Shown: one piece after another, positions 4,456-59,974 of the stretch | Layout: each line of letters begins with the position of its first letter | Position numbering within the stretch: the stretch's first letter is position 1 | Assembly (NCBI RefSeq): GCF_030253575.1 | Contig: NC_080568.1 | Location: forward strand, 25,609,501-25,673,500 | DNA length: 64,000 nucleotides | Source of the DNA: Rhododendron vialii | Taxonomy: Eukaryota > Streptophyta > Magnoliopsida > Ericales > Ericaceae | Direction of reading: 5' to 3' | Notes under the pieces: generated by a model | What the model was told of the DNA's origin: nothing | Seen by the model: only the letters and a program-made list of their open reading frames with translations | The model's database searches: none | Position numbers and translations under genes: made by a program

Positions 4456-5632
4456 TTATGGAGTCCTAGGACCCAGACGTCTTTAAAAGCCAAAGCTTAG
4501 ACAGATTCTTTGTAAATTGTAGTCAAAACTAAGGTGAGAATGTAAACACCATGCGATGCGGGTTTCATTGATTTATGGGGTTATGTTTTTATTGCTTTTA
4601 CTATCTGATTCAACAAACAGAATGAAGGTATGTATATTAGACTAGAGATGGTAATATAGTATGCTGTACGCATAATGCATGTATATCTACATACACTGGT
4701 TGATGTTTGTTCTCCTGGTTTTATTTTCTCTATCACGTTTAAACTGACCATCTTGTCATGACCATCTTATTAGATAAAAGCTAAAGCCACAAACAATACC
4801 CAAGCAAAAGGTTTTTCATAATTTTGTTTTTTGATTATGATTTGAATGATTCATTGGTCCGTGCAGATAGACCTTCATCTATCGGCCACATTGGAGAATT
4901 AATAAGCCTGGCCAGTCCTAGGCTCCCAGTTTTGCAGGAATGTATACTAACTAGAAATATAACTTATATTGTGAGTGTCTCATATGGCGAACATTTGAAT
5001 TTACCTGTGAGACTGGTATGCAAACCTTGTAAGAGAACATATACGAGCAATTTTGCTTGAAATGGATCAGTGCACAGGTATCCAAGTGGAGTCGGGGACA
5101 GAAGTGGTTCGGTGCTCAATGTCAAACTATATACTTCAAGTTCTCTGACTACATATTACAATGTTTGAGAAGTATATAAGGCCTATAGTTGTATTACATA
5201 TTGGTACCAATATTTTTCCGGCAAGGGATGGCCTTGGTCTTTAGACATGGGATATTTTATGTCAGTTTCTCTCCTGGGTTTTGCAAATAGGGCGTGTCAG
5301 TTCAGGTCAGGTCAGGCCCATGTCATTTTATTCTTAATCAGCATGTAGATTTCAATTAATGTGTAAATTTGTTTTCCTTAATTCTTCTCTTCTATCCATC
5401 AAATATGCATTGCGTTCTTCTATTCTTCTTGCTTTTTTCTTTGTATGTTATGTTTCCCATACCGTGGATCTATTTGCTAAGGGAAAAAATTCTGACGATT
5501 TGAAGATATTGGACTTTCTCTGTATATTTAGTTTGTTATTGTATGTACGTCCTGATTCCTGAAGATCTTTGGTGTTTTTTCTGCAGTTTATGTACATTTG
5601 CTGGTCAGGAGTTGCCAACAGCTGATAAGGAG

Positions 5633-8600
5633 ATGGCATCAAACACAGAGAGTGGGAAGAGTTTTGCACGAAGAGACCAGCTTCTGCAAATTGAGGCACA
5701 GGTTCAGAAGTGGTGGGAAGAGAAAGAAGTTTTCAGGGCTGATTCTCTCGAAACTCTCCCCAAACTGGGTGAGAAGTTCTATGGGAACTTCCCTTTCCCT
5801 TACATGAACGGCTACCTTCACTTGGGACATGCATTCTCTCTCTCCAAGCTTGAATTCGCAGCAGGCTATCACCGGTTGAGAGGTGCCAATGTGCTCTTGC
5901 CTTTTGGTTTCCACTGTACTGGGATGCCTATTAAGGCCTCTGCTGACAAACTTTGTCGCGAAATTCAGAAATTTGGTAATCCACCTGTTTTTCCTACCAT
6001 AGCAGAGGAGAAGATCATAGATCCGGAACCGCAACTAGAGGAAGCTAATGCTGGAAATGAGGTTGCACCAGATAAATTTAAGGGGAAAAAGTCCAAGGCA
6101 ACAGCAAAAACAGGTGGCGATAAATACCAGTGGGAGATAATGAGAAGTTATGGCCTCTCTGATGAGGACATTTCCAAGTTTCAGGATCCATATTACTGGC
6201 TTTCTTATTTTCCCCCTCTGGCTGTAGAAGACCTTAAGGCTTTCGGCCTTGGCTGTGATTGGAGACGGACTTTCATCACAACTGACATAAACCCATTTTT
6301 TGACTCTTTTGTCCGGTGGCAGTTGAGGAAATTGAAGAAGTTGGGTAAAATTGTCAAGGACCTGAGATACACTGTATACTCCCCCTTAGATGGTCAACCA
6401 TGTGCTGATCATGATCGAGCTTCAGGGGAAGGTGTTATTCCTCAAGAATACACGTTGATAAAAATGGAGGTTATTCCACCTCTTCCTCCAAAATTGAGAG
6501 CTCTGGAGGGAAGGAAAGTGTACCTGGTGGCTGCAACATTGAGACCCGAGACTATGTATGGGCAAACAAATGCATGGGTACTACCAGAGGGAAAATATGG
6601 AGCTTTTGAGATCAATGAAACTGATATATTTATCTCGACAGAGAGGGCGGCTCTTAATCTTGCGTATCAGAAACTGTCACGGGTCCCAGAAAAGCCTACT
6701 TGTTTGGTTGAGTTGACTGGGAATGATTTGATTGGTTTGCCTTTGAGGGCTCCTTTAGCTTTCAATGAGACTATATACTCTCTACCCATGTTGTCAATTC
6801 TCACAGACAAGGGTACTGGGATTGTGACCAGTGTCCCCAGTGATTCACCTGATGATTTCATGTCTCTTTACGAATTGAAAGCAAAACCAGCTTTCAGGGC
6901 CAAGCTTGGCGTGAAGGACGAGTGGATCCTACCATTTGAAGTCATTCCAATCATTAACACCCCAGAATTCGGAGATAAAGCTGCTGAGAAGGTTTGCCTA
7001 GATATGAAGATCAAGAGCCCGAATGAGAGGCAGAAGCTTGATGAGGCCAAGAAAAAAATATATAAAGGAGGGTTCTATGAGGGAACTATGCTTGTGGGAG
7101 AATATGCAGGGATGAGAGTCCAGGATGCGAAGAATTTGATCAAGAACAGGCTTATAGAGCATGGAGAAGCTGTTGTTTACAGTGAGCCTGAGAAGAAGGT
7201 CATTTCAAGATCAGGGGATGAGTGTGTTGTGGCTTTGACTGATCAGTGGTACATCACTTATGGGGAATCAAATTGGAAGGAGGCAGCAGAGGAGTGTTTG
7301 GTTAGTATGAATCTCTTTTGTGATGAAACACGGCATGGCTTTGAGCATACTTTGAGTTGGCTAAATCAATGGGCTTGTTCTCGTAATTTTGGGCTTGGCA
7401 CTCGTATTCCTTGGGACGAACAGTTTCTTGTAGAGTCTCTTTCTGATTCGACTCTTTACATGGCGTATTATACCGTCTGTCATCTGTTACAAAGAGGTGA
7501 TATGTATGGTTCTGATACGTCGTCAGTGAAACCAGAGCAGCTGACCGACGAGGTCTGGGATTTTTTGTTCTGTGGTGGGCCCTGCCCTAAATCATCCGAT
7601 ATTTCTCTTCCTCTTCTTAATAAGATGAAACAAGAGTTTGAGTACTGGTATCCATTTGATCTACGGGTCTCAGGTATTGTTTTGTTTCGTTTGTTTCTTG
7701 CATGTTTTTACATTCTAGTCTGTGTTCATCATAACAGTAGCTCTGTGACCATCACCTTTATCTGTAGGCATATCTCATCATCATCGTCATTAAGTTAGCT
7801 GTTGATCGATTGATATACCACATTATGTCGCAGTACTATCTGTACAGCGACTCCCATGGAATTGGTTATTTTAGCTATTCAAAGGCCACAGTATAGCATG
7901 CTAAGATTCCAATGTACAAAGTTTAAGCAATGCTTTTCCAATTCTAGAAATGCTATTTCTTCAATGTTATTTTTAAAAGGTCAGTTCCCACTCGTACTTG
8001 TGGGTCCCATCAAAAAGAGAAAGAAAGAAGTACCGACAAGATTTTGGAAGATGCTCGTACCAAATGCCGGATATGGCATTCATTTGGCCTTTGCCAAATT
8101 ATAAGCATTGATTCAGCAACATTGGAGACCAATGTATGTTGGCGATGGCCATTTTTTGGCTTTGCCAAGTGATTTAACTGCCCATTGGAGTTGCTATTGC
8201 ATTCTTTCTTTGCCTTTTCCTTCCGTTAGCTGCTTTCTTGGTACAGTCAACTAACATTTTATGGATTTTTTTACTCTTTTAGGTAAGGATCTGATCCAGA
8301 ATCATCTCACCTTCTGCATTTATAACCACACAGCAATTTTGCCCAAGCATCACTGGCCTCAAGGCTTTCGATGCAATGGTCACATTATGTTGAATGCCGA
8401 AAAAATGTCGAAGTCAACAGGGAATTTTAGGACGTTGCGCCAAGCAATTGAAGAGTTCTCAGCTGATGCCACACGATTCTCCCTTGCTGATGCGGGCGAT
8501 GGAATGGATGATGCAAATTTTGTTTTTGAAACGGCCAATGCCGCAATCCTAAGGCTCACGAAAGAGATCGCATGGATGCAGGAGGTTATCGCTTCTGAAT

Positions 8601-9499
8601 CTTCTTTTCGAAGTGGCCCCCCTACGACTTATGCTGATCGCGTTTTTGCAAATGAGATAAACATTGCCGTGAAAATGACGGAGAAGAACTATGGTGAGTA
8701 CTTATTTAGAGCAGCTCTTAAAAGTGGGTTCTATGATCTTCAGGCTGCTAGGGATGAGTACAGGTTTTCTTGTGGGTCCGGGGGCATGAACCGGAACCTA
8801 TTGTGGAGGTTTATGGATGTGCAGACAAGGCTTATAACTCCAATTTGCCCACATTATGCCGAATATGTTTGGAAGGAGCTTTTAAAGAAGGAAGGGTTTG
8901 TCATTAAAGCAGGGTTTCCTGGATGTGATTTACCTGATCTTACCCTTAAAAGGGCCAACACATACTTGCAAGACTCAATTGTTTCGATGAGGAAGTTGCT
9001 TCAGAAACAAGTTTCTGGGTCAAAGAAAGCAAAGGTAAATGCGTCAAGTCAACAAAGCAAACCGACGGTTGGTTTAATATTTGTGAATGAGCAATATGAT
9101 GGGTGGAAAAGGGAATGCTTAAATATCCTTAGAAGTAACTTTGATACTGCGACACAAAGTTTTGCTCCCGACCAGGAGATCATGGAGGCCTTGAAGGAGA
9201 GTGAAATTGGGCAGGAAGCGAATTTTAAGCAGACCCAGAAGCTTTGTATGCCTTTCTTAAGGTTTAAGAAAGAGGAGGTTATGGCTGTTGGGGTTCAGGC
9301 GTTGGATTTGCGATTGCCATTCGGTGAGATAGAGGTTTTGGAGGAGAACTCAGAGTTGGTAAAGCGGCAGCTTGGTCTCGAGCGGGTGGAAATTTTGTCT
9401 GCAACAGATCCTGATGCTGCTAGAAGAGCTGGCCCCAATATTTCGATTCTACGGCAGAATCCTCCATCTCCAGGAAACCCCACTGCCATCTTTGAGTGA
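5633..9499 (+). CDS. Cytosolic leucyl-tRNA synthetase (class Ia), two exons
   Basis: Charges tRNA-Leu with leucine for cytosolic translation. Exons 5633-7673 and 8283-9499 (intron GTATTG...TTTTAG, 609 bp) join to 1,085 residues, close to the ~1,090 usual for plant cytosolic enzymes. The HIGH motif appears as HLGH at about residues 63-66 and the KMSKS motif (EKMSKSTGN) at about residue 720. Between them lies the CP1 editing insertion (GVIPQEY, LRPETMYGQTNAW, LVELTGNDLIGLPL). The anticodon-binding and C-terminal extension follow, ending NPPSPGNPTAIFE. The start was chosen as the ATG before ASNTESGKSFARRDQLLQIE; the open frame runs on upstream without another ATG. CTGCAG at 5581-5586 looks like the acceptor of an intron in the 5' leader. 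No defect is seen, so the gene looks functional. Confidence 0.97.
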
Positions 9500-10208
9500 T
9501 TCCTTCTGTGAATTACCTTTCTTGTTTAGATTTTAACTTATCCTTGCAATTTTTGAGGACAGCTATTCTGTTTCAGCTAATACTAGACTTCTGTGAACTT
9601 CACTTATTTTGAAACTTGATTCACACTTTTTTGGAATTTTGTATGGGAAATTATAGTATGTTTGTGGTTTATGACCAGATGGATGATCTGCTATTGTGTA
9701 TTGTTTTTTATACAAGGCCGTGTTTTTTAGTTAATGTATCTTGTTAGTTTAAGCCTAATAATGTTGAATGAACCAATGGGTTAGTGATAGCTGTGTCTGG
9801 GGATGGCTGAGCATGTCTGGGGATGGCTGAATGCTCGAGGCTCCCGCATTGCGAGGTAAGTGAACTGGTTGATGTAAGCAGCCCTATATCCCTCATGCGC
9901 TGTTTCTTCGGCTTGAACCTCTGATCGCGAGATACTATCGGACGAAGCTTCGGGTGGAAGGATAAGGTCAGGGAAAAAGTACCAAGTTTTTGATGTGATG
10001 GAGCTGTTCTTGTTTCTTTGGTTCCCTTAGCATTTCATTTAATTTTTCTTCCCTTGGTAAATTTCTTAACAAATCCAGGATCCAAGCTCGAGTCAAGGCC
10101 AGTGTGATTTCCATGGCATCTGACAAAGTATCAGGCTTTCTTCCAATTACCCGTTGTAGCGTATTCCACAGTTCAGATAAAACACTAGAAACCCAAATAT
10201 TCCAAAGT
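9500..10208. other. Downstream region of the leucyl-tRNA synthetase gene
   Basis: Holds the probable 3' untranslated region. It includes a short direct duplication (TGTCTGGGGATGGCTGA twice, around 9795-9830). No further gene is seen. Confidence 0.5.
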
Positions 10209-10291
10209 TCGATGAGGAAGTTGCTTCAGAAACAAGCTTCTGGGTCAAAGAAAGCAATCATAAATGTGTCAAGCCAACAAAGCAAACCGAC
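10209..10291 (+). pseudogene. Duplicated 83-bp fragment of the leucyl-tRNA synthetase gene
   Basis: This stretch aligns without gaps to 8984-9066 in exon 2 of the leucyl-tRNA synthetase gene, with 6 differences in 83 bases. It would encode SMRKLLQKQASGSKKA, compared with SMRKLLQKQVSGSKKA in the parent. The neighbouring bases show no similarity to the synthetase. It sits only 86 bp outside the left end of the large MULE. It is a copied gene fragment rather than a gene. Confidence 0.9.
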
Positions 10292-10377
10292 AAGAGTTGA
10301 TAGCACGTAAAGAATTTTACTCCCGAGAACTAAGGAGCAAACCCCTAATGGACCTAAGTTTCACCATTGAAAAAAAA

Positions 10378-10422
10378 GGGGGCTGCTATTCGCAGCCCCG
10401 TATTTTCTCCCGTAGCCCGTTA
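10378..10422 (+). repeat. Left terminal inverted repeat of the large MULE
   Basis: The 45 bases match the reverse complement of 24719-24763 at 40 positions. They begin with five G and include GCTATTCGCAGCCC, which can fold on itself (GGGGCTGC / GCAGCCCC). Beyond AGCCC the two arms diverge. Confidence 0.93.
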
Positions 10423-10769
10423 CTCCACGTAGCCCATTTCCAATATTTTAAAAAAGAAAATTTTCTCCATGTAACCCATTAAATGTACCTGATCTTCCTA
10501 TTATACCCTTCCCTCTAAAAAATTACACTTAAACTCCCCCACCCATCCAAATAGAAACCCTAATCCCAGCCAAATACCCAGCCCACCCATTACGTCTCCT
10601 CCCACGCCACTCCATTTCCGTCTCCCCCCACCTCCACCTCCATAGCCACCACTGCAATACCGCCACTCCTGCCGCCGCACCACCGCTGCACCACCGGCTC
10701 AGGTTCTTCTCTCTCTCTGATCTTCTCTCTCTCTGTTCTTCTGTTCTAATCTCCCTCTGTTGTTCTTCT

Positions 10770-10772
<3 letters not shown>

Positions 10773-10811
<39 letters not shown>

Positions 10812-10832
10812 GTCTCTGTGTGTGTGTGTGTG
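10773..10832. repeat. (CT)n/(GT)n microsatellite
   Basis: CT tract followed by TGTGTGTG within the C-rich left arm of the large MULE. Confidence 0.95.
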
Positions 10833-10893
10833 TTCTTCACCACCGCCACCCCAGCACGCCAACCCATTTACATACATGTATTTGTGTAGAGAA

Positions 10894-10985
10894 TTTGGTA
10901 ATTAGATCCCGTATTTTTGTAAATATTTTGGTAATTAGATCCCGTATTTGTTTAGAAATGTTGGTAACTAGATTCCGAAATTGGT
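10894..10985 (+). repeat. 33-bp tandem repeat, nearly three copies
   Basis: The unit TTTGGTAATTAGATCCCGTA plus a variable tail starts at 10894, 10927 and (as GTTGGTAACTAG) 10960, an exact 33-bp spacing. Confidence 0.85.
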
Positions 10986-13162
10986 AGCAAAAAACGGTGA
11001 ATGTGCCCGATTAGTAAGCTGTGAGATGCTACGGACTCCACATCCTCCACGGCTCCACCTAATTGGACTCCACATTCCCTGGTTCTAATCGATTAACCCT
11101 AACTTAGAGCAAAGAATATGAAATAGCTCATAACCATACAACTTAGACTAGCGCATAACCAACTAGGATTTAACTTATCAGAGAGTCGGATACCAGTTAC
11201 AACTTATAAGTTATACAACATATCGCATGGCTGGATCATCTGTGAAAAAAAAGCAACACAACACAACAATTAGGCATTCGATACAAAGCAGAGAAAACTA
11301 AATTGTAAGTGTAAGTTTGTGAGAGCAAAAAGCACAAACAATTCTTAAAAGATCGGTTCACAGCACAATGCCCATCTCATCCCGTCACTGACTATTGCAA
11401 CAACTATGGTTGCCGGTAAAAAGGAAAATGAATTGAAACACGGAGATGGAAGTTGCTTACCCAATAGTCTACGGTGCTAATTTAACTAGTCTAACGATCA
11501 CAGGAACTGGGTATGTTATAGTGGACTTATTACGCACCATTAGCACTTTTAATAGAATTCGGTGCTCCGTGGCCATTTATATGCACAAACTTCCCCTTCA
11601 ATGCTTACGTATTGGATATAAAAAAATCCAAGAGAACTTAAATACACCAGAGAAAGATATCAACCTCACCAATCAAGTATAAACGTTTTGCAATAACTGA
11701 TGACAAGATCCTCTCCACAAACTCCATCTTAATCCTCAAGTACCTGAATTCAACAAACAAGGGTATACAATAAGGAACTCCACTTATCCCAAAATATATA
11801 GGAGTTCTATTATTGTTAGTATATTAACAGTTAAATAGTAATGGGGATTCAACCTTGAGGGCTCTATGTGGATAGGGTAGTGAATGTGCAACCTGTGAAT
11901 AAATAGATTTCTCAGTTCACCCATAGAAGAGCCAAAAAAGGAAATCAAACAGAGCCAAATTTACCTATTGTTTAACGAGTTTCTGCACACATCTATTTTG
12001 TGTCCTCGACTTCATTGTGATGATTGAGCCATGGCTGCCTCCTTTCGCAGAAATCTTTAACCTATTTAAATTTCAAACATCCAAATGGAATAGATCCACC
12101 ACCAAATTTGACCTAATTATGCAATAGAGTGGAACCTTGATTGATACATGCAACAAGGTGAAAAGATCATAGGTTTTCACAATCACCTTAGACGCGTACC
12201 CGATGAGAAGGGATTCAATTGAATGAGTAAGGGCTGGACTCTGAAGATGCTCTTCAATTAACTCATAGTCTAATTATAAGCCAAAAAATGCGCTAAAGTT
12301 CCTTGCTGTTTTTCAGTAAGCATTTTCTAGGATCTTAGCTTTAGATTGTCACCATCTTCAGCTATTACAAGAGTTACCACTAGTTCATATGCAAGGCCCT
12401 TTTCCCAAACAAGAAAGTTATAGTTAAATAAACAAGAAAGTTAATAGTGATTCCCAAATGGAAAAAATAATCAAGAGCTTTGCATACTTCAACAAAAAAA
12501 AAAAAAAGGATTGGAAATTAGTCTTTTTGAAAGATATATTTAGGTTTTAAACAACTTTGCCAATAGCTGTGTCCCTCGACAAAATATTAGTAAGGGTATT
12601 GATATTAGTCTTTTTGAAAGACGTACTCATATAGGGTACTGAGATTAGTTTTTCCGAAAGACGTACTCATATTTGAAACAGCATTCTCATACTCAACAAA
12701 ATAGTACGAGGAATTATTACCAGACGAAATCAAAAGCTAAGGTATGGCCTTCATCATAAGTTGTCTTGGTAATTTGCTATTCTTCCTGTCCCTTCTCTGT
12801 TTTGGAATATATTTTGCAGAACACTTGGTACAAAACTTGTCAGACTCGATTTGTCAACCAAACAATGAACATATAAGAGGGAGAGCAATGAACACTTTGT
12901 TGCAGTGAGCCAAATGAGTTTGAAAATGTTATTGAGTTTGCTTTGGACATTGGTTGTCTCTATTTGCATCATTTGTATGAATTGGAGGAAGTCTGAGTAT
13001 GTTTTTACAACAACAGTTGAAAAGCTATAGAGTACTATTATGGAGTTTTCATTTTGTCTTGCCATAAGCCATAGCTTACTGATAGTGCATAGTCTTATAG
13101 GCATTCTTACTTGTTGTTGTCTTTTCAGACTTGTAAATTTGTATTATTGTTATGATATGCAG

Positions 13163-16100
13163 GTTATTATGCGTCCACCACGTGGAGTTCGAGGCCGAGG
13201 TCGGGCCCGGGGTGTCCTTCAGGACGAGTCTGAGGCTCCTGAGGTAAACAGCTTTCAATAGTTGATTTTTTGAATGAAGTTTAATAGCTCAAGTCTTTCT
13301 CATAGACAAATTCTGCCATCTTCCTTCGTAGTGTCTCATGTTTAACAAGTTGATCTTTTTATCACATAGGTGGTATTCGACCTGAGAAAACGAGACTTGA
13401 CATACCTGCCCGAGTTTATACTCAATAAAAAAACCACTCGACTTAGGTCGGATCTGTCCCACATATAGTGTAAGGGCATGTACGAACAGTGTGAAACATT
13501 TTGTACAAAAAACTGTTTTAGTTTGTGTACAAAAAGCTAAAAAAACCACTCCGCTTAAACTCGGATCTTTTTATCATGAATGTTTGATACTACTTGATGT
13601 GTACCATTCCTTGTTATGACTCATCGATAAGAGGGTATCGTTCCCTCTTTAAAGACTACGCATTTTTGTCCAGTATCCAGTAATACAATTTGACTGAATG
13701 TGAATTAACTAGCTAGCTTTAAGTTCTGCCATGCTGAAGTGGCGTAGAAATTGATGATGGCATACTGTTTGCAAGATTGATGATGATAACTTCAACCATT
13801 TGAGCCACGTTGAAGTATGTTTGCTGTTTGTTTATAAAGGATACGGGCATGATCAACCAAATTGATAAATAAGAACTGTATTCAAAATATTTTGTTGAAA
13901 GCATCGGAGTCAAAGTGGCTATATTTAGGTGGACAAAAATAATGAAACTTTGTTACTATTAGTTTTTTGTGGAAGATTTTTTTCTGGTAATGGAGTTCAA
14001 GGATGTGAATAGGAAAAGTTTATGTCTCAGGCATTAACTGTTTGTAAGCAACAGTGTATTGCCTTTTGGTAAATTGGAGACCAGAAGCAGAAGCTTCACG
14101 TATGATAAAATGTTCTGACTTCTGAAACAAAATTATTTTTCGGTAACCAATCACCGAAATTGTTTATTATTTTCAGTAATCAGTAACTGACATGTTATGC
14201 TTATTTCGGCAACCAGACGTTAAAACTTCATGTGGAAATGGAATAACTTGTAATTGTATTATTTAGGTTATACGTTCACTGCCTCAAGTTCGAACTCGTG
14301 GAGGCCGAGATCGGGGCCGTGGCCGGGGCGAGGCCGAAGTGCATCGTCAGGAAGAGGAACATGCTTTCGTCGAGGACATACCTTTGGATGAGGTTAAAAT
14401 TTTCCAATTTCACACCAGCTTTGTAGTAGTTTGTATTTTATCTTTGTTTGTTTTATGAAACGTTCGGTACCAAAAAATTGAAATATGTATGAACTGCCTC
14501 TTTTAAGACTAACTTGTAATTGTATTATTTTCATATACGTGTAGGTTATGCGTTCACTGCCTCGAATTAGAACTCGAGTAGGCCGAGGTCGGGGCCGGGG
14601 TCGGGGCAAGGCCAAAGTGCCTCGTCAGGAAGAGCAAGATGTTGTCTTCGAGGACATACTTGAGGATGAGGTGAAAATTTTCCAAAAAGGGTTCTACTAC
14701 ATTTTTTTTTTGTTGAACACTAACTCATATTATTTGCAATCTATAGTTTTTTAGTTTTAGGAACACTAATATGTATTGTTTTTGTTTTTTCTTATACGTG
14801 TAGGTTATAGCACCGCAGCCACCGGTAGAGGAAGATGTAAACTTTTTTCAATTTCAAAATTGCTTTGAATAGTATTTTGTAATCTTTATTTGTTTTATGA
14901 ACAATAATATGTATTGTATGTTTTTGCGTATACGTGTAGGTTATAGCACCGCAGCCATCGGTAGAAGAAGAGGTAAACTTTTTTCAATTGCATAATTGCT
15001 TTCAATAGTATTTTTTAATCTTTATTTGTTTTTTGGGACATTCTAATATGTATTGTATGTTTTTGCATATACGTGTAGGTTATAGCACCGCAGCCACCGG
15101 TAGAAGAAGAGGTAAACTTTTTTCAATTGCATAATTACTTTCAATAGTTTTTTTTAATCTTTATTTAATTTATGAACAATAATATGTATTGTATGTTTTT
15201 GCATATGCGTGTAGGTTATAGAACAGCCACCGGAAGAGGTACATTTTTTTCAATTTTATACTCGCTTGCTTTTATTACTTTTTTTTAATAGTTATTTGTT
15301 TTATGAACACTAATCTGTATGGTATTATTGGCATGTATGTGTAGGTTATTCAAGGCCGACGTCGACGTTGGGGCGGTGGCCGGGGCCGGGCAGAAGCACA
15401 GCAACATGACGATGCGCCTTTGGATGTGGGTGGTCCGGAGGACCTATCCTTGCTAAAGAGTTTTCACACACATGTGGCTAAAGCCATTTTGGAGGGAGAA
15501 GAGAGGGGTACATTGAGATTGCATCAACACTCGGGTCTTTTGGGCAATTGGGTAGTTACAGAAGACAGGTTCAAACAAAAGGTATTGAATTTGGGCTTGC
15601 TTCCATTGTGTAGCATAAATAAAAACGCGCAATGCAATTCCTTTAGAATTGCTGCATTTGTTGAAAGGTGGCATCCGGAGACGAACACCTTTCACTTTGA
15701 CTTTGGTGAGATGGGGTTGACATTAGATGACGTAGAACATCTACTAGGGATACCTGTTCGTGGATTGCCTGTGTACACGGAGGACGAAAGGACGCCAAAA
15801 GAACTGTTAATGGATTTGCTTGGTGTGTCGAACGAAGTTGCGACAAATGCAATTACTGTGAATGCAGTTAAACGGTATACAGTTAAGTTGAGTTGGTTGG
15901 AGATGAATTTCAAAGACGTAAATGAGACGGACACAGACGAGCGGGTTGTGTGTTGTGCTCGTGCGTACCTGCTATATGTCATTGGGTGCACCCTTTTTTG
16001 TGATAAGTCAGGTGGGTTCGTACAGCTTGACCTCCTTCCACTATTGGAGGATTTAGATTAGGTTCTTACGTACGGATGGGGCTCTAGTTGCTTGGCATAT

Positions 16101-17591
16101 TTGTACAGAAATCTTGGTTATGCGAGTAGGAGGAATGCAAAGCAGATTGGTGGATTTCTTATATTACTAGAGGTACACTTACTTTTTCTGATTATGAAAA
16201 AACCAATAAGTTCATGTTACGGATATATGATTGTAATATGCTTCACATGCGTGTAATGCTATAGGCGTGGATAAACGAGCACTTCCCAACGCTACATGCT
16301 GTTGTTGACCCAGAGTACACGGAAGAACTTCCACGGGCACGACGTTGGTGTCTGCATAGCGAGAGTGGCACAAGTGTACAGCATTACCGGCGCGTGTTGG
16401 ACAACTTACTTGTAGATGAGATAGAATTCTAACACACTCTGCATTCAACATTTTGTAGAATTACGTTGCCAATTATAAGCTATCTTACAATATTATACAG
16501 TTTGAGAGTAGAAATTAAACTCTTCCACTAAGGACAGAGAACTGTAAGTACAATTATTTTATAAGCTAATCAAATATAGGAGAAGTTCCAACTTAACCTG
16601 TGTCAATATTCTCCAAATTCTCGGTAACACATTGAGATGCATGACATGGCTTTTGCTTCAAAATATCTACTATCAAACCATTAGCCTTCTCCATTGTCTT
16701 CCTTAACTCATCTTCTGAAGTATCGTAATTCTAGCACAGTGATGCAGGGACATTAATCGAGCAGAATCATTAATCGTGAAATTTCTTAAGCGTATGGGGA
16801 CATGAATAATCAAGATAGCCTGCTATTGTAACCCTGCCTCAAATGGCTTTTGTTCAAATGAAGAAAACCCAATAGGAGTTCATGCCACTTTTCAATTGAC
16901 GTGTGCACTACTTTGCCTCCTTGGCCTACTTATAAGCCAAGTTCCACATATATGCCAGACTTTAGTTTTTGAATGAATGATACAGTGTTAGTTGATGGCT
17001 TTCGCCGGATCGTTTGATTAACTTGTTAATTTATTGTACTATTACATATCATATGTTTTGTTTGACAAACAGGTGATATTTGACCCGTACAAGGCCCGCA
17101 GGCAAAATGTCTCTGAGATTGCTTTCTACACTGGTCCCATTCGTGCCATGTCCTATGTGGAGCCATACCTCCCCGACAGAGTCTTGAGGCAGTTTGGACT
17201 ATTGCAGCGAATACCCGCAGACCCTATAGTACCTCAGCGTGCATCGCGAGGCCAGCACACCTATAACGTTGTTTACGAATGGACTGAAGGTTTTTGGTCT
17301 AGCCCTGACTACCACTTGGTGCCTGAGGATAAGAGAGAGCCTACACCACCTGGGATTCCTTGGGCGTGTACTGATGACTACATTCCGTGGTTGAGGGTGT
17401 TCTCGCACCCGAGGGTGGGACATGGTTTGGCACCTGGTGGAGGGCGTGTTAGGCAGGGTCGTGAGGAGCAGGTTCGGGTTGTGTTGGATGTGGTACACAG
17501 GGCTTTGGGCGATACCGAACTTGGAGCTGTTGAGTTGCGGCAGGCACTGCAGGACGTAGAAGCTATTTTATGGCCCACATTTGTTACTTAG
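13163..17591 (+). pseudogene. Plant mobile domain (PMD) gene carried by the MULE, with lesions
   Basis: Candidate exons: 13163-13243, 14267-14392, 14545-14670, 14804-14836, 14940-14972, 15079-15111, 15215-15238, 15345-16172, 16265-16420 and 17073-17591. Every exon through 15215-15238 has a length divisible by three and starts GTTAT. The N-terminal part is RG-rich (RGVRGRGRARG, RDRGRGRG), followed by VIAPQPPVEEE repeats. The PMD follows (FVERWHPETNTFHFDFGEM, LDDVEHLLGIPV, YGWGSSCLAYLYR, AWINEHFP, YLPDRVLRQFG, WLRVFSHPR). PMDs occur in host proteins such as Arabidopsis MAIN and MAIL1, which act in silencing and genome stability, and in plant transposons. Two lesions are visible: an in-frame TAG at 16059-16061 inside an otherwise conserved stretch, and ATAGAA where the donor after VDE (16420) should begin. 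An ATG at 13169 is a possible start, but exon 1 may lie upstream. Confidence 0.85.
14804..15344 (+). repeat. Tandem array of duplicated microexon units (~136 bp period)
   Basis: Exons start at 14804, 14940, 15079, 15215 and 15345 (spacing 136, 139, 136, 130). Each unit has an acceptor ending ACGTGTAG or GCGTGTAG, a 24-33 bp exon starting GTTATAG, a GAG|GT or GAT|GT donor, and an intron with TTTTTTCAATT and AATATGTATTGTATG. The larger upstream exons at 14267 and 14545 are 278 bp apart, about two periods. The units add VIAPQPPVEEE-type peptide repeats in frame. Confidence 0.92.
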
Positions 17592-17784
17592 GAGTTTGCG
17601 GGGTGTTTTGGGGCGAGGTTAGATGTTGGGTTTATGGATAAACAGTTCTTATTAGTATTTTGAATTGTGTAAAACATTTGCTACTTGGACATGTTGGGCT
17701 TTTTTTTTACGAACATTTGGTCAAGCTTGTTCTGCTTTTTTTGAACTACTATGAAAGTGTCTTTCACAAAAACAAACTTTCAAA

Positions 17785-18410
17785 ATTTCAGGCCCTGTCC
17801 ACATGGTCCTCCACAGGAAGAGAATCTTTGTAAATATGGAGTCCAGTACCTTGTCCAATCACAACATTTGTTTGAAGTTGCAATTTTCTCCATACACCAC
17901 ATTATCTACTCCCCATCTACTCCCCCAGGCCAATTCAAAATTCTGTATAGAGCCCCCACACTCACATGCTCCTCCTCAGGGAGAGAATCTAAAAAGGCAT
18001 TTATGTTCTGTAAATCGTACAAATTATTCAGTATCGAAGTGCTGAAATATTTATTATAACAACTTCAGGTTCTAAATGCTGAAACTTTCACAATTTTTGG
18101 TATTTGGTAGGACACTACTGAAAATTTTTAATAATTTCGGAAAGCAAATGCTGAAATCAACCTGCAACCGAAATTAATAACACTTTTCAGTACTAAGGAA
18201 CCGAAATTTTATAATTACTTTAGCAAGCAAATGTTGAAAAAGGGCAGAATCTTTTTCCCCAATAATTTCGGCAACCAAACTTCTGTATAGTGCCCCCACC
18301 CACATGCTCCTCCTCAGGGAGAGAATCTTTCGTAAATATACGTGCAGTGCCTTGTCCAATCAGTTGATTTGTTTTGAACTTGCAATTTTTTCCATACAGC
18401 CCATTATCTT
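17785..18410 (+). repeat. Diverged direct duplication of a ~130 bp block
   Basis: The block around 17785-17915 recurs at 18283-18410, and part of it recurs near 17942-17990. Shared stretches are CCTTGTCCAATCA, CTTGCAATTTT or GTTGCAATTTT, and GAGAGAATCT or AAGAGAATCT after CTCCTC or CCTCCA. It follows the stop codon of the PMD gene and does not look coding. Confidence 0.75.
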
Positions 18411-19745
18411 CATCTCAAAGCCCCAACGTATATGCCTATAAATTGGGAGCTGACAGAGGGAGTTTCAGACTCATACCTCCCTCTATATTTCCAACTATTT
18501 CATACAAAATTTAACCTGTGTCCCAAATTTGTAAACCCTATGGCCGGAGTTTCAATTAACATATGTACATCCCATAGCGTACATATATTTTCATCAGTGA
18601 AATTATTTCGATGGCTTGTGCAGTGTCATGCTTTTTCCAAGCTGGGTAATCAAGCCGTGTCCATCCGAATATGAGGTATTGGGAATATTCAACGTCCTGA
18701 CCATTCGTTCCCTTGTCCGAATAAGAGGTGTTGGGAACGTCGGTCAGTGTGCGTACATACTACAACGACCACATTTGGTTTTCTTGTTGAGTGGAAGGCA
18801 CGTCACCTACCCTCCGTCTCGACGTCGTCGGAGTTGTAGTCACGTCGATGCTCCTGTAGCTGTGAAGGTGTGTGGAGCTTCCTTCACTTCCCCTGACGTA
18901 CCCTGTCCGGGGCTTACAATAATACGCAGTTGTGCCTTGTTGCTGTGTAGGAGGCCTGAGCCACCCCAACCTGCTCCATCGTAAAATAGTATCGTTTGAC
19001 ATTTTCAATGTTATTTTATACTTGTTTTATATAAGTTTTGTATAAGTTGTGGTGCTCAAAGTGTGACAAAACGAGTCTTATAATCTTCTGAAACATTGTA
19101 AATGTTGGATAGACACTCAAATGTTGTCTTGTATTTTCTGTAAAGGGGGCGACAATAAAACATTCTCCTTTAGCCCAAAAAAAAATTTCATGGGCCCTTC
19201 GACAGTTACTTACCGAAATTAAGATACATTTTCATCATACAATTACCGAAATATAATATTTTGTTCAACAGTTATTTACCGAAAATGTTCGTTCGGCAGT
19301 AGTTTACTGAATGTTGAACTTATTTCCGACATGTAGTTACCGAAATATAAACTTTTTTTCAACAGTTGTTTACCGAAATGTTATGTATGATTTTCAACAA
19401 CTATTTACCAAAATATAGTGCTAAGGGAGAAATTACGGGGCTGCCAATACTCGCCCCCTCTGTAGATTGTGGTACTCATATTTGGGCAAAAAAGATTCAG
19501 ATTCAACTCCATCAATGACACTTGGTGCCTCAGAGAGTCCACCTAACTTTTTGTTCAAAAAAAAATCATATTTCAGCAGGCACATGATGAAATAGTACCA
19601 ATGATTCGGTATCCAACTGCTGAAATATTATACAAATTTCGGGTCATAGATGCTGAAAAAATACAAAAATATCGGTATGCAGCTACAACAAGATTACAAT
19701 AACTTTGGAATGCAGCCTCTGAAATGAACTTGTGCTCAGTCAATT
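18060..19745. repeat. Dispersed ~21 bp inverted-repeat motif, central clusters
   Basis: Clusters at about 18065-18290, 19190-19420 and 19560-19740 hold many copies of a degenerate near-palindrome of the type TTCGGTAACCAACTGCCGAA. Examples are TTCGGAAAGCAAATGCTGAA, TTCGACAGTTACTTACCGAA and TTCAACAGTTATTTACCGAA. The 19190-19420 copies are mostly in the opposite orientation to those at 23.1-24.1 kb. No gene is seen in this stretch between the two convergent units. Confidence 0.8.
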
Positions 19746-20112
19746 TGTTCACATAAACCCCATAATAAAATTAATGGCACTAAGAGCGAAACCAAACTCC
19801 ATGAATGTGCTTAGTTAACAGCATTGCAATATAAAGCGTCAACATGATAACCATACGTATAAAACAAAACTAATCTACGTCAATCGACTTAGCGGTTGCT
19901 ACATCACTTCCTATTATGGCTTTAAATGCTTCCATTTCGGCAGAAAAAAGTGTCTCCCATTCATTGGCCTCCTCCCATCGAAATTTGAACCAATTGTTGG
20001 CAATAGGCGGCACGGGGGAACATGCTTTTAGATCAACCTATCAAAGTAAAAAGACTTTAAAAATTGCACATGAAGGCAATTTGTAGTAATGTTGAATTTA
20101 TGAGAAAGAAAA

Positions 20113-20640
20113 TTATACGGTATGTACCTGTACGAAGTGATCTCCGTTCACGAGTCCAATTCCAAGAACCCTTATTTGGTCTGATGATGGAGGACGAGAA
20201 TGGAGTGGAAGGAAAGTAAGGCATTGAAGTTGGGATATGAGGACAACCACCACATTATAAGTTGAAGCTACAACGTGACCCATGTCAGGAAAAATCATCC
20301 ACCTATCTTCGGGTGCAGTTCCGTCTTGAAAGAACGACAATCTATAACGCAACTTGTTAGCACCTCCGATACCAGTAATCTTTTCGTACAGGTCATAATG
20401 GTTATTCACCTCCAAGAGCAAATCATTTCGGCATGTCTTCCAATTGTGCTCGAATTGGTGCATAAAATAAGCTACCGCTCGGTACCCACAATTTCCATCA
20501 CTTGTCACATCCGTTATAGATTTTACGTGCGGCCGAATTGGTTCCGGAAAGTTATTAAGGTACGGTCCTACAAAAAGGGTTCCAAGAAGTTTTGGCTTCT
20601 TCCGCCTCGGTAACTCCTTTGCCGCCTTGGGGGTTCTCAC
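20113..20640 (-). CDS. OTU-like cysteine protease domain downstream of the MULE transposase
   Basis: The 175-residue frame carries the OTU signature DVTSDGNCGYRAVA, whose Cys would be the catalytic nucleophile. Near the C-terminus is LVNGDHFVQVHTV, whose His would be the general base. OTU domains cleave ubiquitin or related linkages, and OTU modules attached to transposases occur in plant MULEs. The frame overlaps the stop of the transposase frame by a few bases and is shifted relative to it. Its first residues (RTPKAAKELPRRKKPK) continue the Lys/Pro-rich linker of the transposase. I infer that the two were one protein split by a single-base loss near 20650-20662, where one extra base would restore the linker pattern. 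The ATG at 20640 is only the first in frame and may not be a true start. Confidence 0.85.
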   Translation of the reverse strand: MRTPKAAKELPRRKKPKLLGTLFVGPYLNNFPEPIRPHVKSITDVTSDGNCGYRAVAYFMHQFEHNWKTCRNDLLLEVNNHYDLYEKITGIGGANKLRYRLSFFQDGTAPEDRWMIFPDMGHVVASTYNVVVVLISQLQCLTFLPLHSRPPSSDQIRVLGIGLVNGDHFVQVHTV

Positions 20641-23600
20641 AATGGCCTTTCCCTGGGGCTATTATCATCCACCGCATTGATGCTTTTTTTTTTTGTGGTC
20701 TTGTCGGGAGTTTCCACATCCGCCATGGCATTCGCCTTGGGCCTTTTTTTCACAACTGCCTTAGCCTTGGGGGTTTTTTCCTTGACCGACTTAGGAGTTT
20801 CCAAGGATGCCTCAACATACTCAAACTCAGACGGGTTCCTACGCATTGACTTATTGACCGAACCGGACTTTCGACCGCGGGTCTGGACCTTCTGTTGGGG
20901 TGAAGACAGGGATATGATTGATGGATTCAAAATGGGTTTTAAACTCTTCATCCAATGCATATGGGTCATAGGATTTTGGCCAACCATTTTGGCCATAAAG
21001 ATATTCCAATCGGCATTCATTAGTTTCAAAATTGTCCCATCATCTTTATGTTTCTCAAACGAAAGCATCTTCCAATGATCATTAATCAATGACAACGGTA
21101 TGGGTTCACCCCGATTCTTGAATGGAGCAATCTCGTGAGCACAAGGTAAACCATGGATTCGGCGAATAGGACAGCCACAGTCAACCTTGTCCTCCACGAC
21201 CATGTCATCAATTTTCTTAATCTCCGGCAACATCAAACCCATGGCAGTCTGTGAAGTAGCTCCCCTTAAATGGTCAAAGATAGGAATTCTAAACTGGTGC
21301 TGCCAACAATTCAAACTTTTCTCAAAGCTACCCTTTATATCCGTGATTTGTAATTTAACCAAGTCTTGCATTTTAGCCCAGGCCGCCGAGAAGTTGGCTT
21401 GGCAATTCGCAATGTGGGATTTCAGCTTCGCATGTTCAGACTCAACCTGTGGAAATGGTAAAGGAAAGTTTTAGGCATCGAAATATCAATATCTAATTGT
21501 GAAAAGATATGGACACAGTAAAACATGCATATGGTGCTAGCCATTTACCTATTGCTTGTCAGGTTGCCAAAGTGCATTACATTGTTCGTCCAAGCTGATA
21601 CAAATTTCTGCCTATACGGTCCCAACCAATTTGTCTCAACGTACAGAAGCGCATCTGGATATAGCACAAACTCCCGCTTCATTGTACAAAGTGTTTGCTC
21701 GTATAAAGATATAGTCGGTGAGTACACCAGTGAATCCCAAGCATGCTTAAACAGAGCCCAAGTCGTCTCATCAAACATCTTTCTACATTTGGCATATACA
21801 TTTTGCCCAATATGCCATCGACAAAGAAGATGGCTGGCCGTTGGGAACACTCTTGTAATGGCATTCACTAGAGCTAACTCCCTGTCTGTCACAATAACAC
21901 CGGGAAGTGCAGCAGGATCCATTATACTCTTCAATTTCTCCAACACCCACGTATAGTTTTCCTCTTTCTCCCCATCAATGAATGCAAAGGCAGCCGAAAA
22001 AGTCTTCTCGGTGGATGTAATGCCAACAATCTGGAGCAAAGGAAACCTGTATCTGTTGGTCTTGTATGTGCAATCCATCAACAAAACCCGAGGGAAAGCA
22101 CGCAACATGTCACCAGAAGTAGGATGTGACCAAAATAAGTCCTTCACACAGTCATTGTCATCTTTCCGATTAAACTCGATGTACCCATATTCTTGTAACT
22201 TAGCCAATAAATATTGCATTTGAGATCTTTCCGCTCGGTCCTTAAACCCATGCTTGTAGCGTGCGTTGTAGATGGTTTTAATTGAACTTACATTGAATTC
22301 ATCTTTGCCCTTTATTAGACTTAGGATCTCTCGCGGTGTAGACAATGACGAAACACACATATCCACCAACATATTCGACTGCTCCAAAGATAACCTCGCG
22401 GGATAAGCGTGCCCCTCAAGCTGTTTCGCAGGAGGATGATTGTGATTGCCGTTGTAGACAGTGACAGTCCAACCTTCCAACCCCTTAACACATCTCAGTT
22501 GAAATGGGCATTCGCATTTCTTAGTTCCTGTGACGCGTGCTATCTTCTTTGCCTTCGCTTCTTTGCCATTGCCATTCTCCTTCACATTACCTCCTTTGTC
22601 CTTTGCCTTGTTGATAAACGGTCTAAACTTTCCACCCCGTTCGCATGCAAACCGCATCCTTGGCCTTCGGTTCTTTGTCATTCTCTCTGCCGACTTTATG
22701 ATAATTACAAACCCATTTTCCTTACCGGTAGATGTTATCCAATCTCTCAACATATCTTCAGATGCAAAAACCTACAAACATGATTCAACAAAAACATTTA
22801 ATAACAGTAAACAAAGAAAATCCAAAGAACCATTGAATCATCCAACTATTTTGAAAACACTCACATTCTCCGTTGTAAACTCTCGTGTCAAATCATATAG
22901 GGCCATTGGACCTATGTGGCTGCCGTGCGCACTCACATTCTCCGTCGTACACTCCGGTGCTATGGTCACTGGACCTATATGGCTGCCGTGCGTTGAAGCG
23001 TCACCCTGAAGAAAGTATAAAAAATTCAAAAGTCCATTAAAACAAGTTTTATACCTCTCTAGATCTGTTTTGGTAAGTGAATATCAAAAATACATAGAAT
23101 TCGCATAAGTATCACTTTCGGTAACCACATGTCAAAAATATATACAAAATTCGGTAACCAACTGCCGAACGTTTGGCATGCCAAAATTACATAACATTTC
23201 AGTAAGTACCTATTGAAAATAACATTACATTTCGGTAACTACACGTCGAAAATATGTTCAACTTCGGTAACCAACTGCCGAACTATGCATAGAAAAATTA
23301 TTATACACAACATTTCGGTAAGTAGCTGTTGAAAATAAGATTACATTTCGGTAACTACACGTCGAAAATATGTTCCAACTTCGGTAACCAACTGCCGAAC
23401 TATGCATAGAAAAATTATTATACACAACATTTCGGTAAGTAGCTGTTGAAAATAAGTTTACATTTCGGTAACTACACGTCGAAAATATATTCCAACTTCG
23501 GTAACCAACTGCCGAACTATGTATAGAAAAATTATAACATAACATTTCGGTAAGTAGGTATTGAAAATAGGATTATATTTCGGTTGTTACACGTCGAATA

Positions 23601-24437
23601 TATATTCAAATTTCAGTAATCAACTGCCGAACTATATAGAAAAAAATTATACATAAGATTTCGGTAACTACACGTCGAAAACATGTTCAAAATTCGGTAA
23701 CCAACTACCGAACTATGTCTACAAAATTATACATAAGTAAATAAGATTATATTTCGGTAACTACACGTCGAAAATATATTCAAACTTCAGTAAACAACTG
23801 CCGAACTATCTATATGGGGAAAACCATGCATACATTTCGATAAATTGCTGTTGAAGAAAAGATTATATTTCGGTAAATACATGTCGAAAATATGTTCAAA
23901 CTACGGTAAAGAACTGCTAAACTTAATACTATATAGGAAAATCATACATACATTTCGGTAACTAGCTGTTGAAAAAAAGATTCTATTTCGGTAACTACAT
24001 GTCAAAAATGCATACAACAAAAAAACAATAAACATATATTTCGGTAATTAGATGCTGAAAATGTATCTCAATTTCGGTAACTAGCTATCGAATATGGTAA
24101 TATTTTACAGTGGTTAGCTACCGAAATTACTTACTTTATTCTGTTCATTCTGTTCGAACCAGAAACATCGACGAAACCCTTGAAAAACTGGGTTTACAAA
24201 ATCCAGACGCCACAACAACAAAACAGAGGCATTGTAAACGGAAAAACTTACCTCCTCACGCGGCTTCCAAGATACAGTGTCCATCACAATATCATTCTTC
24301 TCCTCTGCCATGATATGGTTGTCAATAAAATTTGATTCAATTTCAAAATCAAATCCTACAAGTGGGTCAAAAAATGGATCAATGGAAGGACTTGAACCTT
24401 CCATTGATACAATATATGGTCTTTGCTCCTCCTCCAT
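20637..24437 (-). CDS. MULE transposase with FAR1-like N-terminus and SWIM zinc finger
   Basis: Hand-built exons (minus strand): 24437-24252 (ATG, MEEEQRPYIVSMEG), 23005-22865, 22771-21549 and 21446-20637. The N-terminal part has a FAR1-like DNA-binding region (CPFQLRC...NGNHNHPP). The MULE catalytic core follows, with likely catalytic aspartates in LLMDCTYKTN and VIVTDRELALVNA and the CRWHIGQNV motif. The last exon holds the VES motif and the SWIM finger CGCPIRRIHGLPCAH, then a Lys/Pro-rich linker. It would cut and move the element by binding its terminal repeats. One problem: with GT-AG splicing, exon 3 ends two bases into a codon while exon 4 must start at a codon boundary to read VESEHAKLK. 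The spliced frame therefore hits a stop within nine codons. Confidence 0.9.
22865..23005 (-). repeat. Internally duplicated exon 2 of the transposase gene
   Basis: The exon contains two related 72-bp units. They encode HGSHIGPVTIAPECTTENVS and HGSHIGPMALYDLTREF followed by TTEN. Each unit ends in GAGAAT followed by GTGAGTG, so each carries its own potential splice donor. Use of the first donor (exon end 22937) would drop 24 residues in frame. Confidence 0.85.
23040..24125. repeat. Subterminal tandem array (~116 bp unit) of the inverted-repeat motif
   Basis: Units begin with TTTCGGTAACTACACGTCGA at about 23231, 23347 and 23464 (TTTCGGTTGTTACACGTCGA at 23579), a spacing of 115-117 bp, with decayed copies to 24125. 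Each unit contains three related near-palindromes: TTCGGTAACTACACGTCGAA, TTCGGTAACCAACTGCCGAA and TTCGGTAAGTAGCTGTTGAA. The array fills intron 1 of the transposase gene. It is not a CRISPR array: there are no unique spacers and this is plant DNA. Confidence 0.92.
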
Positions 24438-24718
24438 TGAAAAATTTGAGAGAGAGGAAAAAAGAGAATGATGATTTAGAGAGCCGAGAGAAGAGAAGAT
24501 GAACTGGTACAAAGCCGAGAATGAAGAACTGGAGGTTGTGTGCGTTTTTTTTATTTTCAAACGTGAATGATGATTTTGGGGGGATTTTGAGGGGAAGGGG
24601 GTACTGGATAATTTAGGGATTTTGGTTATAAGGGCATATAGGTCATTTCATGTATAGGTATAAGGGTAAGTAAGTCATTATACATTAGGGGGTCATGTTG
24701 TAATTACTTGCAAATTTT

Positions 24719-24763
24719 TAATGGGCTCCGGGAGAAAATAGAGGGCTGCGAATAGCGGCCCCC
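24719..24763 (-). repeat. Right terminal inverted repeat of the large MULE
   Basis: Reverse complement of the left end with five mismatches in 45 bases. It is followed outside by nine A, matching the A run before the left end. Confidence 0.93.
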
Positions 24764-24975
24764 AAAAAAAAAGAGAGAAACGAAAGAGTTGGGATATTAC
24801 GGTAGTGACCCTTCATTGATACAATTTTGTTATTGGATTTGCAACGATACCACTTTTTGATGGACCTTCATAAAAAGCTGATATATTTCTCTCTCCTTAC
24901 CTCTCTCTCTCTCTTACCAATGGCGCTCGCAAGTCGCAATGCAACTTAAATTTCATCATCTGTGCTGCATGGGAG

Positions 24976-58500: not shown

Positions 58501-59974
58501 GCTTGCAACAGAGATGCGAAAGTTTGTGATTAACTCCATGTCCACAATGGAGTTACTGTTTGGGATATCCGCTTGCGTAGAGATGTGTGTGTACAGGAGG
58601 AGGCAGCTTTGATGGTGTTGCTCTTTAGAGTGTATGATGTATGGGGGTTAGGAGAAGGGGAGGATGAGATGCGGTGGAATGTATCCTCATCTAGAGCCTT
58701 TCGGGTGAATTCCTTTTATCTTTATGTCGGAGGGGTAATCCCTCCTTTCCTTGGCAAGCTATTTGGAAAACAGTGGCTCCGCTTAAAGTGAGTTTCTTTG
58801 TTTGGTGCGCGGCTCAAGGCAAAATTCTTACTATCGATAATTTGATTCGGTGAAGGAGAATCTTGGTAAATTGGTGTTATATGTGCAAAAGGGATGCAGA
58901 GATGGTCAATCACCTTCTGCTTCATTGCCCGGTGGCGTGGGAGCTTTGATCCTTGATTTTCTCTTGGTTTGGGATACAATGGGTTGTTTCAAGTAGTGTC
59001 ATGGAACTCTTAATTGCTTAGAATGGGGCCAAAGTGGGAAAAAGAAGGAAGCGTGTTTGGGCTATGATCCCTCTTTGTTTGATGTGGGTGATTTGGCGTG
59101 AAAGAAATTCGAGATGCTTTGAAGGAGTTGAAAAGCCTTTATCTAGAATTTTTTTTTTTTTGTTAAATAGCTTGTATAGTTGGGACAAGTATGATTGTTT
59201 TCCATCTCTTGACCAATTTTTAGATTGGTTTGAGCTTTTTCAATCGAATAGGAGTGCAAGTGTATAGGGGCTTTTTGTCTTGTGGCCTTCAATTGTATAT
59301 GGGGCGGTATTCCCTTAATGCTTTTTTGGTAATATAATCTTTTACTTATCAAAAAAAAAATTGTCACCGTTAACAGTCACTGTGAGGTTTTCCTGTCCAA
59401 GGGAGTTGAGGAACTAATAAGGTTCAACATACTGACCCGCATAAGGGTCCTTCAAACTTGTTAAATTTCACGTCGTTAGGCCATAGCAAGTTAAAATGAA
59501 TGGATTGGACGCAAAAAACTGCAACTAGTATTTGTAAAGTTTAGACCGAGAATTTGCTCACGTAGCTATACATCTCACATGATTCGTTTTTTATCTTATT
59601 CACTCTGGTTTTCTGTGGCTTTTCCTTCATGGGTTTCTAAGATTGTGTTTATGTCCATCATTTTTGTTTCCCTGAATCCGAAGACTGTGTACGACCATGA
59701 CACGTTCTCCAAAGATGACAAAATGGGAGATGCAGAGTTTGACATTAAAGCACTAGTAGAGGCCATGAGAATGGATTTGCACGGGCTTTCATCTGGGGTA
59801 ACAGTCACAAGAGTCGAACCGTCAAGGCAAAACTGCCTAGCGGAAGCTAGCTCTATTAAGTGGACAGACAGGAAGGTTAGTCAAGATTTGTGCCTCAGAT
59901 TGAGAAATGTGGAATGTGGTGAAGTGGAACTGTCCCTGCACTGGGTTGACCTTCCTGCCACCAAGGCTTTATAG
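55598..59974 (+). CDS. C2-domain ABA-related (CAR) protein, three exons
   Basis: Exons 55598-55708, 56640-56735 and 59684-59974 join in phase (37 + 32 + 96 codons) to 165 residues, the usual CAR size. One C2 domain fills the protein: [76 protein letters not shown]. The Asp residues of DVRSSDPY and [10 protein letters not shown] are the calcium-binding loops. The plant CAR insertion ([32 protein letters not shown]) and the tail [20 protein letters not shown] follow. CAR proteins bind membranes in a calcium-dependent way and recruit PYR/PYL abscisic acid receptors. Intron 2 (2.9 kb) holds a MITE and a LINE relic. No coding lesion is seen. Confidence 0.95.
56924..57209. mobile_element. MITE with palindromic ends in CAR intron 2
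   Basis: Flanked by an exact 10-bp duplication ATGGATAAAA (56914-56923 and 57210-57219), a Mutator-like length. The ends are inverted repeats of about 75 bp that are nearly perfect from GGTACCGAC inward (through ATCGTAGGG and the CCGGCCACCGG block). Each end is itself palindromic: GGTACCGAC, three bases, then GTCGGTACC. It is far more GC-rich than the intron around it. Confidence 0.85.
57820..59360 (+). mobile_element. 5'-truncated L1-type LINE relic in CAR intron 2
   Basis: The + strand encodes the end of an L1 reverse transcriptase protein ([20 protein letters not shown], then FLWSG and [20 protein letters not shown]), followed by traces of the zf-RVT region (near 58.8-59.0 kb) and [16 protein letters not shown]. 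The 3' end is TTTTACTTATC plus ten A, a typical plant L1 tail. Several frameshifts show it is dead. The 5' boundary is uncertain and no target duplication was found. Confidence 0.9.

Follow-up and report, generated by a model that had tools for sequence, protein, structure and literature searches.

A plant mobile domain gene paired with an OTU-fused transposase in a Rhododendron Mutator-like element, a candidate reader of family-specific intron arrays

Introduction

What would a plant mobile domain (PMD) gene do within a transposon? Host PMD proteins are required for the silencing of transposable elements and for meristem upkeep, and a 2021 review described them as enigmatic and the domain as one of unknown function (PMC8616336; here and below, statements about published work refer to the parts of each source available to us). 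The question is raised by a 64,000-nucleotide stretch of the Rhododendron vialii genome (contig NC_080568.1, positions 25,609,501 to 25,673,500), called the window here, of which positions 10378-24763 are a two-gene Mutator-like element (MULE). One gene encodes a transposase fused to an OTU-like domain, the other, convergent with it, a PMD protein, and an array of 22-bp units lies within the transposase gene, in its first intron. The reading that we favour, and hold to be somewhat probable from sequence comparison and a structure model, is that the PMD protein of this OTU-fused MULE would read the array of its own family sequence-specifically and lift the silencing of this promoter-near intron.

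Architecture and copies of the element

The element belongs to a young two-gene MULE family of a Rhododendron, and the copy in the window has decayed, with reading frames broken in both genes. Inverted-repeat comparison delimits its terminal inverted repeats (45 nt each, 89% identical) at 10378..10422 on the forward strand and 24719..24763 on the reverse strand. They are flanked by an 8-bp target site duplication (no strand assigned), AAAAAAAA, at 10370..10377 and, matching it, AAAAAAAA at 24764..24771, the 8-bp length being set from sister copies. A MULE DDE transposase domain, terminal inverted repeats and a duplication within the class range (8-11 bp) place the element among the MULEs.

We have searched the host genome (532.6 Mb, 13 contigs) with the left 223 bp of the element (40 scored matches out of 631 candidates) and compared, over 20 kb each, the window copy and 10 among the best left-end matches (n=11). 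Sequence of both genes lies between matching ends in 5 of the 10 other copies. These are C4a (C4:34402385), 98.9% identical to the window copy over its whole length and carrying a PMD frame break and a stop in the transposase; C1a (C1:16066722), in which both genes are open and encode a transposase-SWIM-OTU fusion of 1012 aa and a PMD protein of 647 aa; C9a (C9:40103322), where the PMD gene is open but the frame breaks within the OTU part; and two copies in a more advanced state of decay, C1b (C1:16016791) and C10b (C10:31472716), the latter missing part of the transposase. Another four are derivatives of 4.3-4.5 kb that lack the PMD domain and the DDE exon and keep edge exons (transposase exon 1, for example), and the copy at C2:46067184 retains the left end and a piece of array only. 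Perfect 8-bp duplications surround nine of the eleven copies, the window copy included; among these eleven, no matching duplication was found at C10b and no right end for the C2 copy. The layout proposed in the first-pass annotation, 45-bp terminal inverted repeats and a duplication around two convergent genes, is seen in sister copies too, and the genes that it named, a transposase with a SWIM finger and OTU-like domain and a PMD gene on the other strand, are read in the window and open in C1a.

The PMD gene and its predicted fold

The PMD gene (13169..17591, forward strand) was identified by its match to PF10536 (E 7.3e-29 and 1.1e-8), which makes its product a member of the plant mobile domain family. 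Its ten exons, with splice sites placed by reading, are 13169-13243, 14267-14392, 14545-14670, 14804-14836, 14940-14972, 15079-15111, 15215-15238, 15345-16172, 16265-16411 and 17073-17591. This sequence-based model gives an open frame of 647 aa in C1a and C9a, and in the window copy it is broken by an in-frame TAG in exon 8 (16059..16061, forward strand). The protein has an RG-rich tail. Four short, tandemly duplicated exons (VIAPQPPVEEE-like; 14804..15238, forward strand) recur with a spacing of about 136 bp; they were duplicated along with their introns, an exon-level tandem duplication within a transposon gene. The possibility that the PMD gene is an independent transposon inside the element was rejected: none of the 25 longest inverted repeats (of 128) encloses it, and a nested element at 19146-19456 lies outside the gene.

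The structure model suggests what such a protein could do. By a structural match to PDB 9lnj, the modelled PMD domain shares the fold of VANC21, a DNA-binding anti-silencing protein of an Arabidopsis transposon. In a tree of 42 rows (Gypsy PMDs were not among them) the PMD of the element groups with sequences from Rhododendron and Vaccinium, in a 14-row clade supported at 100/100. By the Nei-Gojobori method, C1a and C10b differ by 27 synonymous and 36 non-synonymous changes in the PMD gene and by 26.5 and 40.5 in the transposase (ratio 0.41 in both), and C1a against C1b gives dN/dS values of 0.57 for the PMD and 0.31 for the transposase; since both C10b and C1b are dead in part, all these ratios are biased upward.

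Pairing of the two genes across the genome

If the PMD gene works with this transposase, how often do the two stand together? Searches with PMD exon 8 gave 151 matched places (150 of 1352 candidates scored) and searches with transposase exon 3 gave 103 (102 of 1115), so the pairing counts are lower bounds. After merging, the transposase loci were grouped by identity to the window family: >=80% (n=18), 49-71% (group B, n=37) and 40-44% (group C, n=46). A PMD lies within 20 kb of at least 14 of the 18 closest loci (13 convergent, one on the same strand) and of at least 11 of the 37 group B loci, all 11 convergent, so that the convergent orientation is shared by 24 of the 25 pairs, which span two divergence groups. 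The chance expectation is 0.0055 PMD neighbours per transposase locus, and an accidental layout was rejected on this account. The pairing counts exclude 69 weaker PMD matches; set against the 76 unpaired transposase loci, only one of them fell within 40 kb. Five other copies with both genes and at least 14 PMD-paired loci show that the family does not regularly do without its PMD gene. Co-occurrence between the same ends, which the first-pass annotation had proposed to check, is found in 5 of the 10 other copies compared. Copies without a PMD exist as well, 4 of the 18 close loci having none listed within 20 kb; at C9:2088894 and C10:8675967, for example, near-identical transposase loci stand beside a left end with no listed PMD.

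None of the 46 group C loci has a listed PMD inside 20 kb. This group is possibly a young, PMD-free sister group and would serve as a natural control. Many of its loci (e.g., C3:25241855 and C6:13742391) have equal scores and a frame that stays open over 392 or 395 aa.

In other species, the PMD and transposase genes RHGRI_014086 and RHGRI_014088 of R. griersonianum share a contig with tags two numbers apart, Rhmol01G0253200 and Rhmol01G0253500 of R. molle share one with tags three numbers apart, and the Camellia proteins P0174 and P0069 have a common 479-kb contig.

A 22-bp array in the first transposase intron

The transposase-OTU gene (19870..24437, reverse strand) has five exons, with splice sites read by eye, at 24252-24437, 22865-23005, 21549-22771, 20128-21446 and 19870-20037, coding for 1012 aa in C1a. 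Within intron 1 (23006-24251), at 23116..24121 (no strand assigned), lies an array of 22-bp units, TTTCGGTAACTAACTGTCGAAA, with 19 occurrences of TTCGGTAA, often 33 bp apart. The unit (motif A) is the consensus of 26 in C1a and forms an imperfect dyad with TTTCG...CGAAA arms. The element contains TTCGGTAA 25 times against 0.49 expected, with none in the 49.6 kb outside; 19 of the 25 are in intron 1, five in the nested derivative at 19146-19456 and one in PMD intron 1 (14139). CpG reaches an observed/expected ratio of 1.82 within the array, compared with 0.58 and 0.66 for its flanks (mean 0.65 and maximum 1.64 in 96 windows outside); the CG within the motif itself accounts for part of the high value.

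The nested stretch (19146..19456, no strand assigned) is a short derivative of about 311 bp (a miniature inverted-repeat transposable element) of the same family, with decayed ends and five motif copies, and is spanned by the alignments of all five other two-gene copies. The idea that the array at 19198-19400 belonged to the original intergenic design was dropped, this being the nested derivative.

The array also recurs in shorter elements. The four derivatives of 4.3-4.5 kb retain 12-15 motifs each, and two elements of about 324 bp consist of ends plus array only, with 5 or 7 motifs; one has an exact duplication, TCCCACAG, and the other TTTTTATT, with ends uncertain by two bases. Genome-wide, a spaced pair of motifs has 731 occurrences and the reversed pattern 7; the pairs stand at dispersed sites (among the 100 places listed). 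With hundreds of dispersed pairs, the notion of an array confined to autonomous elements was abandoned.

A second family with its own array

Were the array a target evolving along with its reader, gene pairs that have diverged should each have an array of their own in the same intron. We have read the second family from one group B element, L051, at C9:25827957, covering 3 kb on the upstream side of transposase exon 3; its transposase is 60% and its PMD 48% identical to those of the window family. An array of TTTCAAACTCTAGAGTTTGAAA (motif B) lies there, flanked by frames similar to exons 1 and 2. The unit is a perfect 22-bp palindrome and recurs at steps of 33, 33, 59, 105, 65, 33, 70 and 66 bp (<=6 mismatches); motif A is absent from this intron stretch. 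At <=5 mismatches, unit B is found 7 times in L051 and neither in the 49.6 kb of background nor in the window family element, and unit A 29 times in C1a and neither in the background nor in L051. Short tandem-repeat motifs in non-coding parts are thus family-specific, as in VANC-type systems, in the two families compared. Genome-wide, the spaced B pattern occurs 92 times (1 in the control) in 46 clusters, and it lies 273-1098 bp upstream of transposase exon 3 at 8 of the 37 group B loci. Group B is not uniform, and its seven PMD-paired loci without motif B may hold a third motif. Motif A persists in a subfamily of intermediate divergence at C2:37457097 (transposase 81%), with 7 units in 650 bp (<=5 mismatches).

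At C1:20043349-20044588 a PMD exon (45%) is followed within about 0.6 kb downstream by three pairs of motif B, and no transposase is listed within 20 kb.

The transposase-OTU fusion

The SWIM zinc finger, CGCPIRRIHGLPCAH, was recognised as a sequence motif at 21135..21182 (reverse strand), and the OTU-like domain (DGNC ... GDHFVQ) by motifs and a profile match at 20128..20574 (reverse strand), running on into exon 5. In the window copy the frame breaks at about 20640, between the transposase part and the OTU. The fusion is matched by an annotated R. vialii protein, P0208 (1061 aa), which has the MULE domain and is 100% identical across the OTU stretch. Public names are misleading here, the R. 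vialii MULE transposases P0006, P0007 and P0208 all being labelled "PKS-NRPS hybrid synthetase cheA-like".

An OTU protease is recognised by catalytic Cys/His motifs and fold, and by these marks the domain is assigned to that class. The DGNC and HFVQ motifs are present, and a profile search against the PDB found 6dx5 at E 1e-5 and, weakly, OTUD3 (0.016). At E<=0.01, Pfam matched neither the OTU nor the SWIM stretch. With the structure model, whose OTU part has a pLDDT of mostly 40-77 per ten-residue block, Foldseek matches to OTU chains were weak (E 0.1 and up), and a structural search of the PDB with the transposase model had no OTU chain among the 50 matches listed. A DGNC-type OTU start appears in at least 10 of the 120 transposase relatives listed, seven of them Camellia proteins, in a search whose length limit hides longer proteins. 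At a guess, the OTU domain may remove ubiquitin from chromatin or from a transposase target.

Sequences surrounding the element

Left of the element (window 5504-10310) lies what we take, from its translation, to be a leucyl-tRNA-synthetase-like gene, which runs to 9499; one of its exons is partly repeated (SMRKLLQKQ...) at about 10210-10310, close to the left end of the element. Frames at 57994-58533 and 50313-50768 resemble, by eye, parts of LINE and copia reverse transcriptases.

Comparison with known systems

ULP1 proteases belong to the ubiquitin-like pathway. Kaonashi and other ULP1-bearing MULEs carry a protease domain, as here, but have it within a VANC-type gene and not fused to the transposase (PMC13317346). 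By analogy, the layout resembles the VANC/VANDAL system in three points: an extra gene whose product would have the same fold, short motifs repeated in introns, and a motif differing between families. VANDAL21 (Hiun) of Arabidopsis is a MULE with such an extra gene, VANC21, and with short tandem-repeat motifs in non-coding parts that vary among related families (PMC5735166, PMC10398659). In the Rhododendron element, by contrast, the extra protein can be recognised as a PMD (PF10536) and ends in an RG-rich tail, an OTU-like domain is part of the transposase, and the motif is a 22-bp dyad instead of the VANDAL 9-mer YAGTATTAY.

MULE groups 42 and 45-50 (MUDR, MDR, MUDRAVI2, VANDAL and others; Dupeyron et al., 2019, Table 1, PMC6446971) pair a transposase with a PMD, often antisense, as here, but have 9-10 bp duplications where given, and FAR1 only in an oomycete subgroup; the word OTU is absent from the main text of that paper, and its available passages say nothing of motif arrays. 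The plant subgroup of Jittery group 36 shares the SWIM finger and 8-bp duplication and has a FAR1-like N-terminus, which the Rhododendron transposase may have too, but it has one ORF with no PMD or OTU listed (PMC6446971; compared by table description, not by tree). In grasses and Amborella, PMD-C is fused to a MULE transposase, another MULE capture of a PMD, for which the authors speculate on anti-silencing (PMC5418596); the Rhododendron element has two separate convergent genes and no fusion. That MULEs carry PMD genes, often in antisense orientation, and that these may serve anti-silencing has already been published (PMC6446971 Table 1, PMC5418596). In the available parts of the open literature we found no link between the PMD and VANC folds (the publication on PDB 9lnj, not found, may already state it), no motif arrays paired with a PMD and no OTU-fused MULE transposase; we also found no work on PMD in Rhododendron in the open literature.

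Which protein might read the array?

In the reading we favour, the PMD protein would bind the 22-bp array of its own family and keep the promoter-near transposase intron free of silencing; transposase would then be made, and elements consisting of ends plus array would move. The helper or anti-silencing role suggested in the first-pass annotation gains support from the VANC21 fold and the family-specific arrays, and as a function it is still a proposal.

Several observations weigh against it. The link to VANC21 is one structural match at 10% identity, and a profile of 49 PMD proteins compared with PDB sequences did not recover VANC21 at E<=10. The dN/dS values set C1a against only two decayed copies. 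The array in the 4.3-4.5 kb derivatives may survive only through retention of the whole right end, and most of the 731 spaced pairs cannot sit in the few autonomous copies. Motif B is absent at 7 of the 11 PMD-paired group B loci, 26 of the 37 loci of that group have no listed PMD, and the 650 bp from the decayed intermediate copy at C2:37457097 yielded no array with Tandem Repeats Finder. The host PMD proteins MAIN and MAIL1, moreover, act in silencing (PMC5418596).

The chief rival, which we consider unlikely, is that the array is a transposase binding site or transposition enhancer and that the PMD does another job, for example guarding the transposase or directing its localisation. The short ends-plus-array derivatives fit reading by the transposase as well as by the PMD, and the two of about 324 bp are what a minimal trans-mobilised element would look like; a listed PMD is found at only 4 of the 8 group B transposase loci with motif B. 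Against this, the array of long copies is mainly within intron 1 and not at both ends, and the PMD has, in the model, the same fold as a protein whose structure was determined in complex with its target DNA.

The PMD could also bind the array to join the ends or assist transposition, as TnpA of maize En/Spm reportedly does, without undoing silencing. The presence of the array in the smallest derivatives seen and the frequent 33-bp spacing of the dyads agree with this, but the array is internal in long copies and a VANDAL21 transgene without the other two ORFs still gives methylation loss (PMC5735166), and we find such a role quite unlikely.

That the PMD is a self-limiting repressor, damping the copy number of its own family by silencing as MAIN and MAIL1 do, draws on the function of host PMD proteins (PMC5418596), but a transposon-borne gene paired in two divergence groups fits a helper better and the modelled fold match is to an anti-silencing protein, which makes this very improbable. 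A passenger captured by chance and without a role, as the tendency of MULEs to pick up host gene fragments (PMC6446971) and the group B loci without a listed PMD might suggest, is hardly credible given 24 of 25 convergent pairs in two divergence groups, dN/dS below 1, neighbouring tags in R. griersonianum and R. molle and the common Camellia contig.

Biological implications

The predicted VANC21 fold, together with family-specific arrays, turns the function of the PMD into a concrete and cheap question, whether it reads the 22-bp units. We tentatively entertain a broader hypothesis, in which the whole plant mobile domain would be a sequence-specific DNA reader of VANC fold, which transposons pair with fast-changing palindromic intron arrays to lift silencing, and MAIN and MAIL1 would be domesticated transposon readers. 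If the PMD does read these units, VANC-type anti-silencing would be a wider strategy of plant MULEs instead of a VANDAL speciality, and transposon anti-silencing and host silencing would be linked through one protein fold changing sides.

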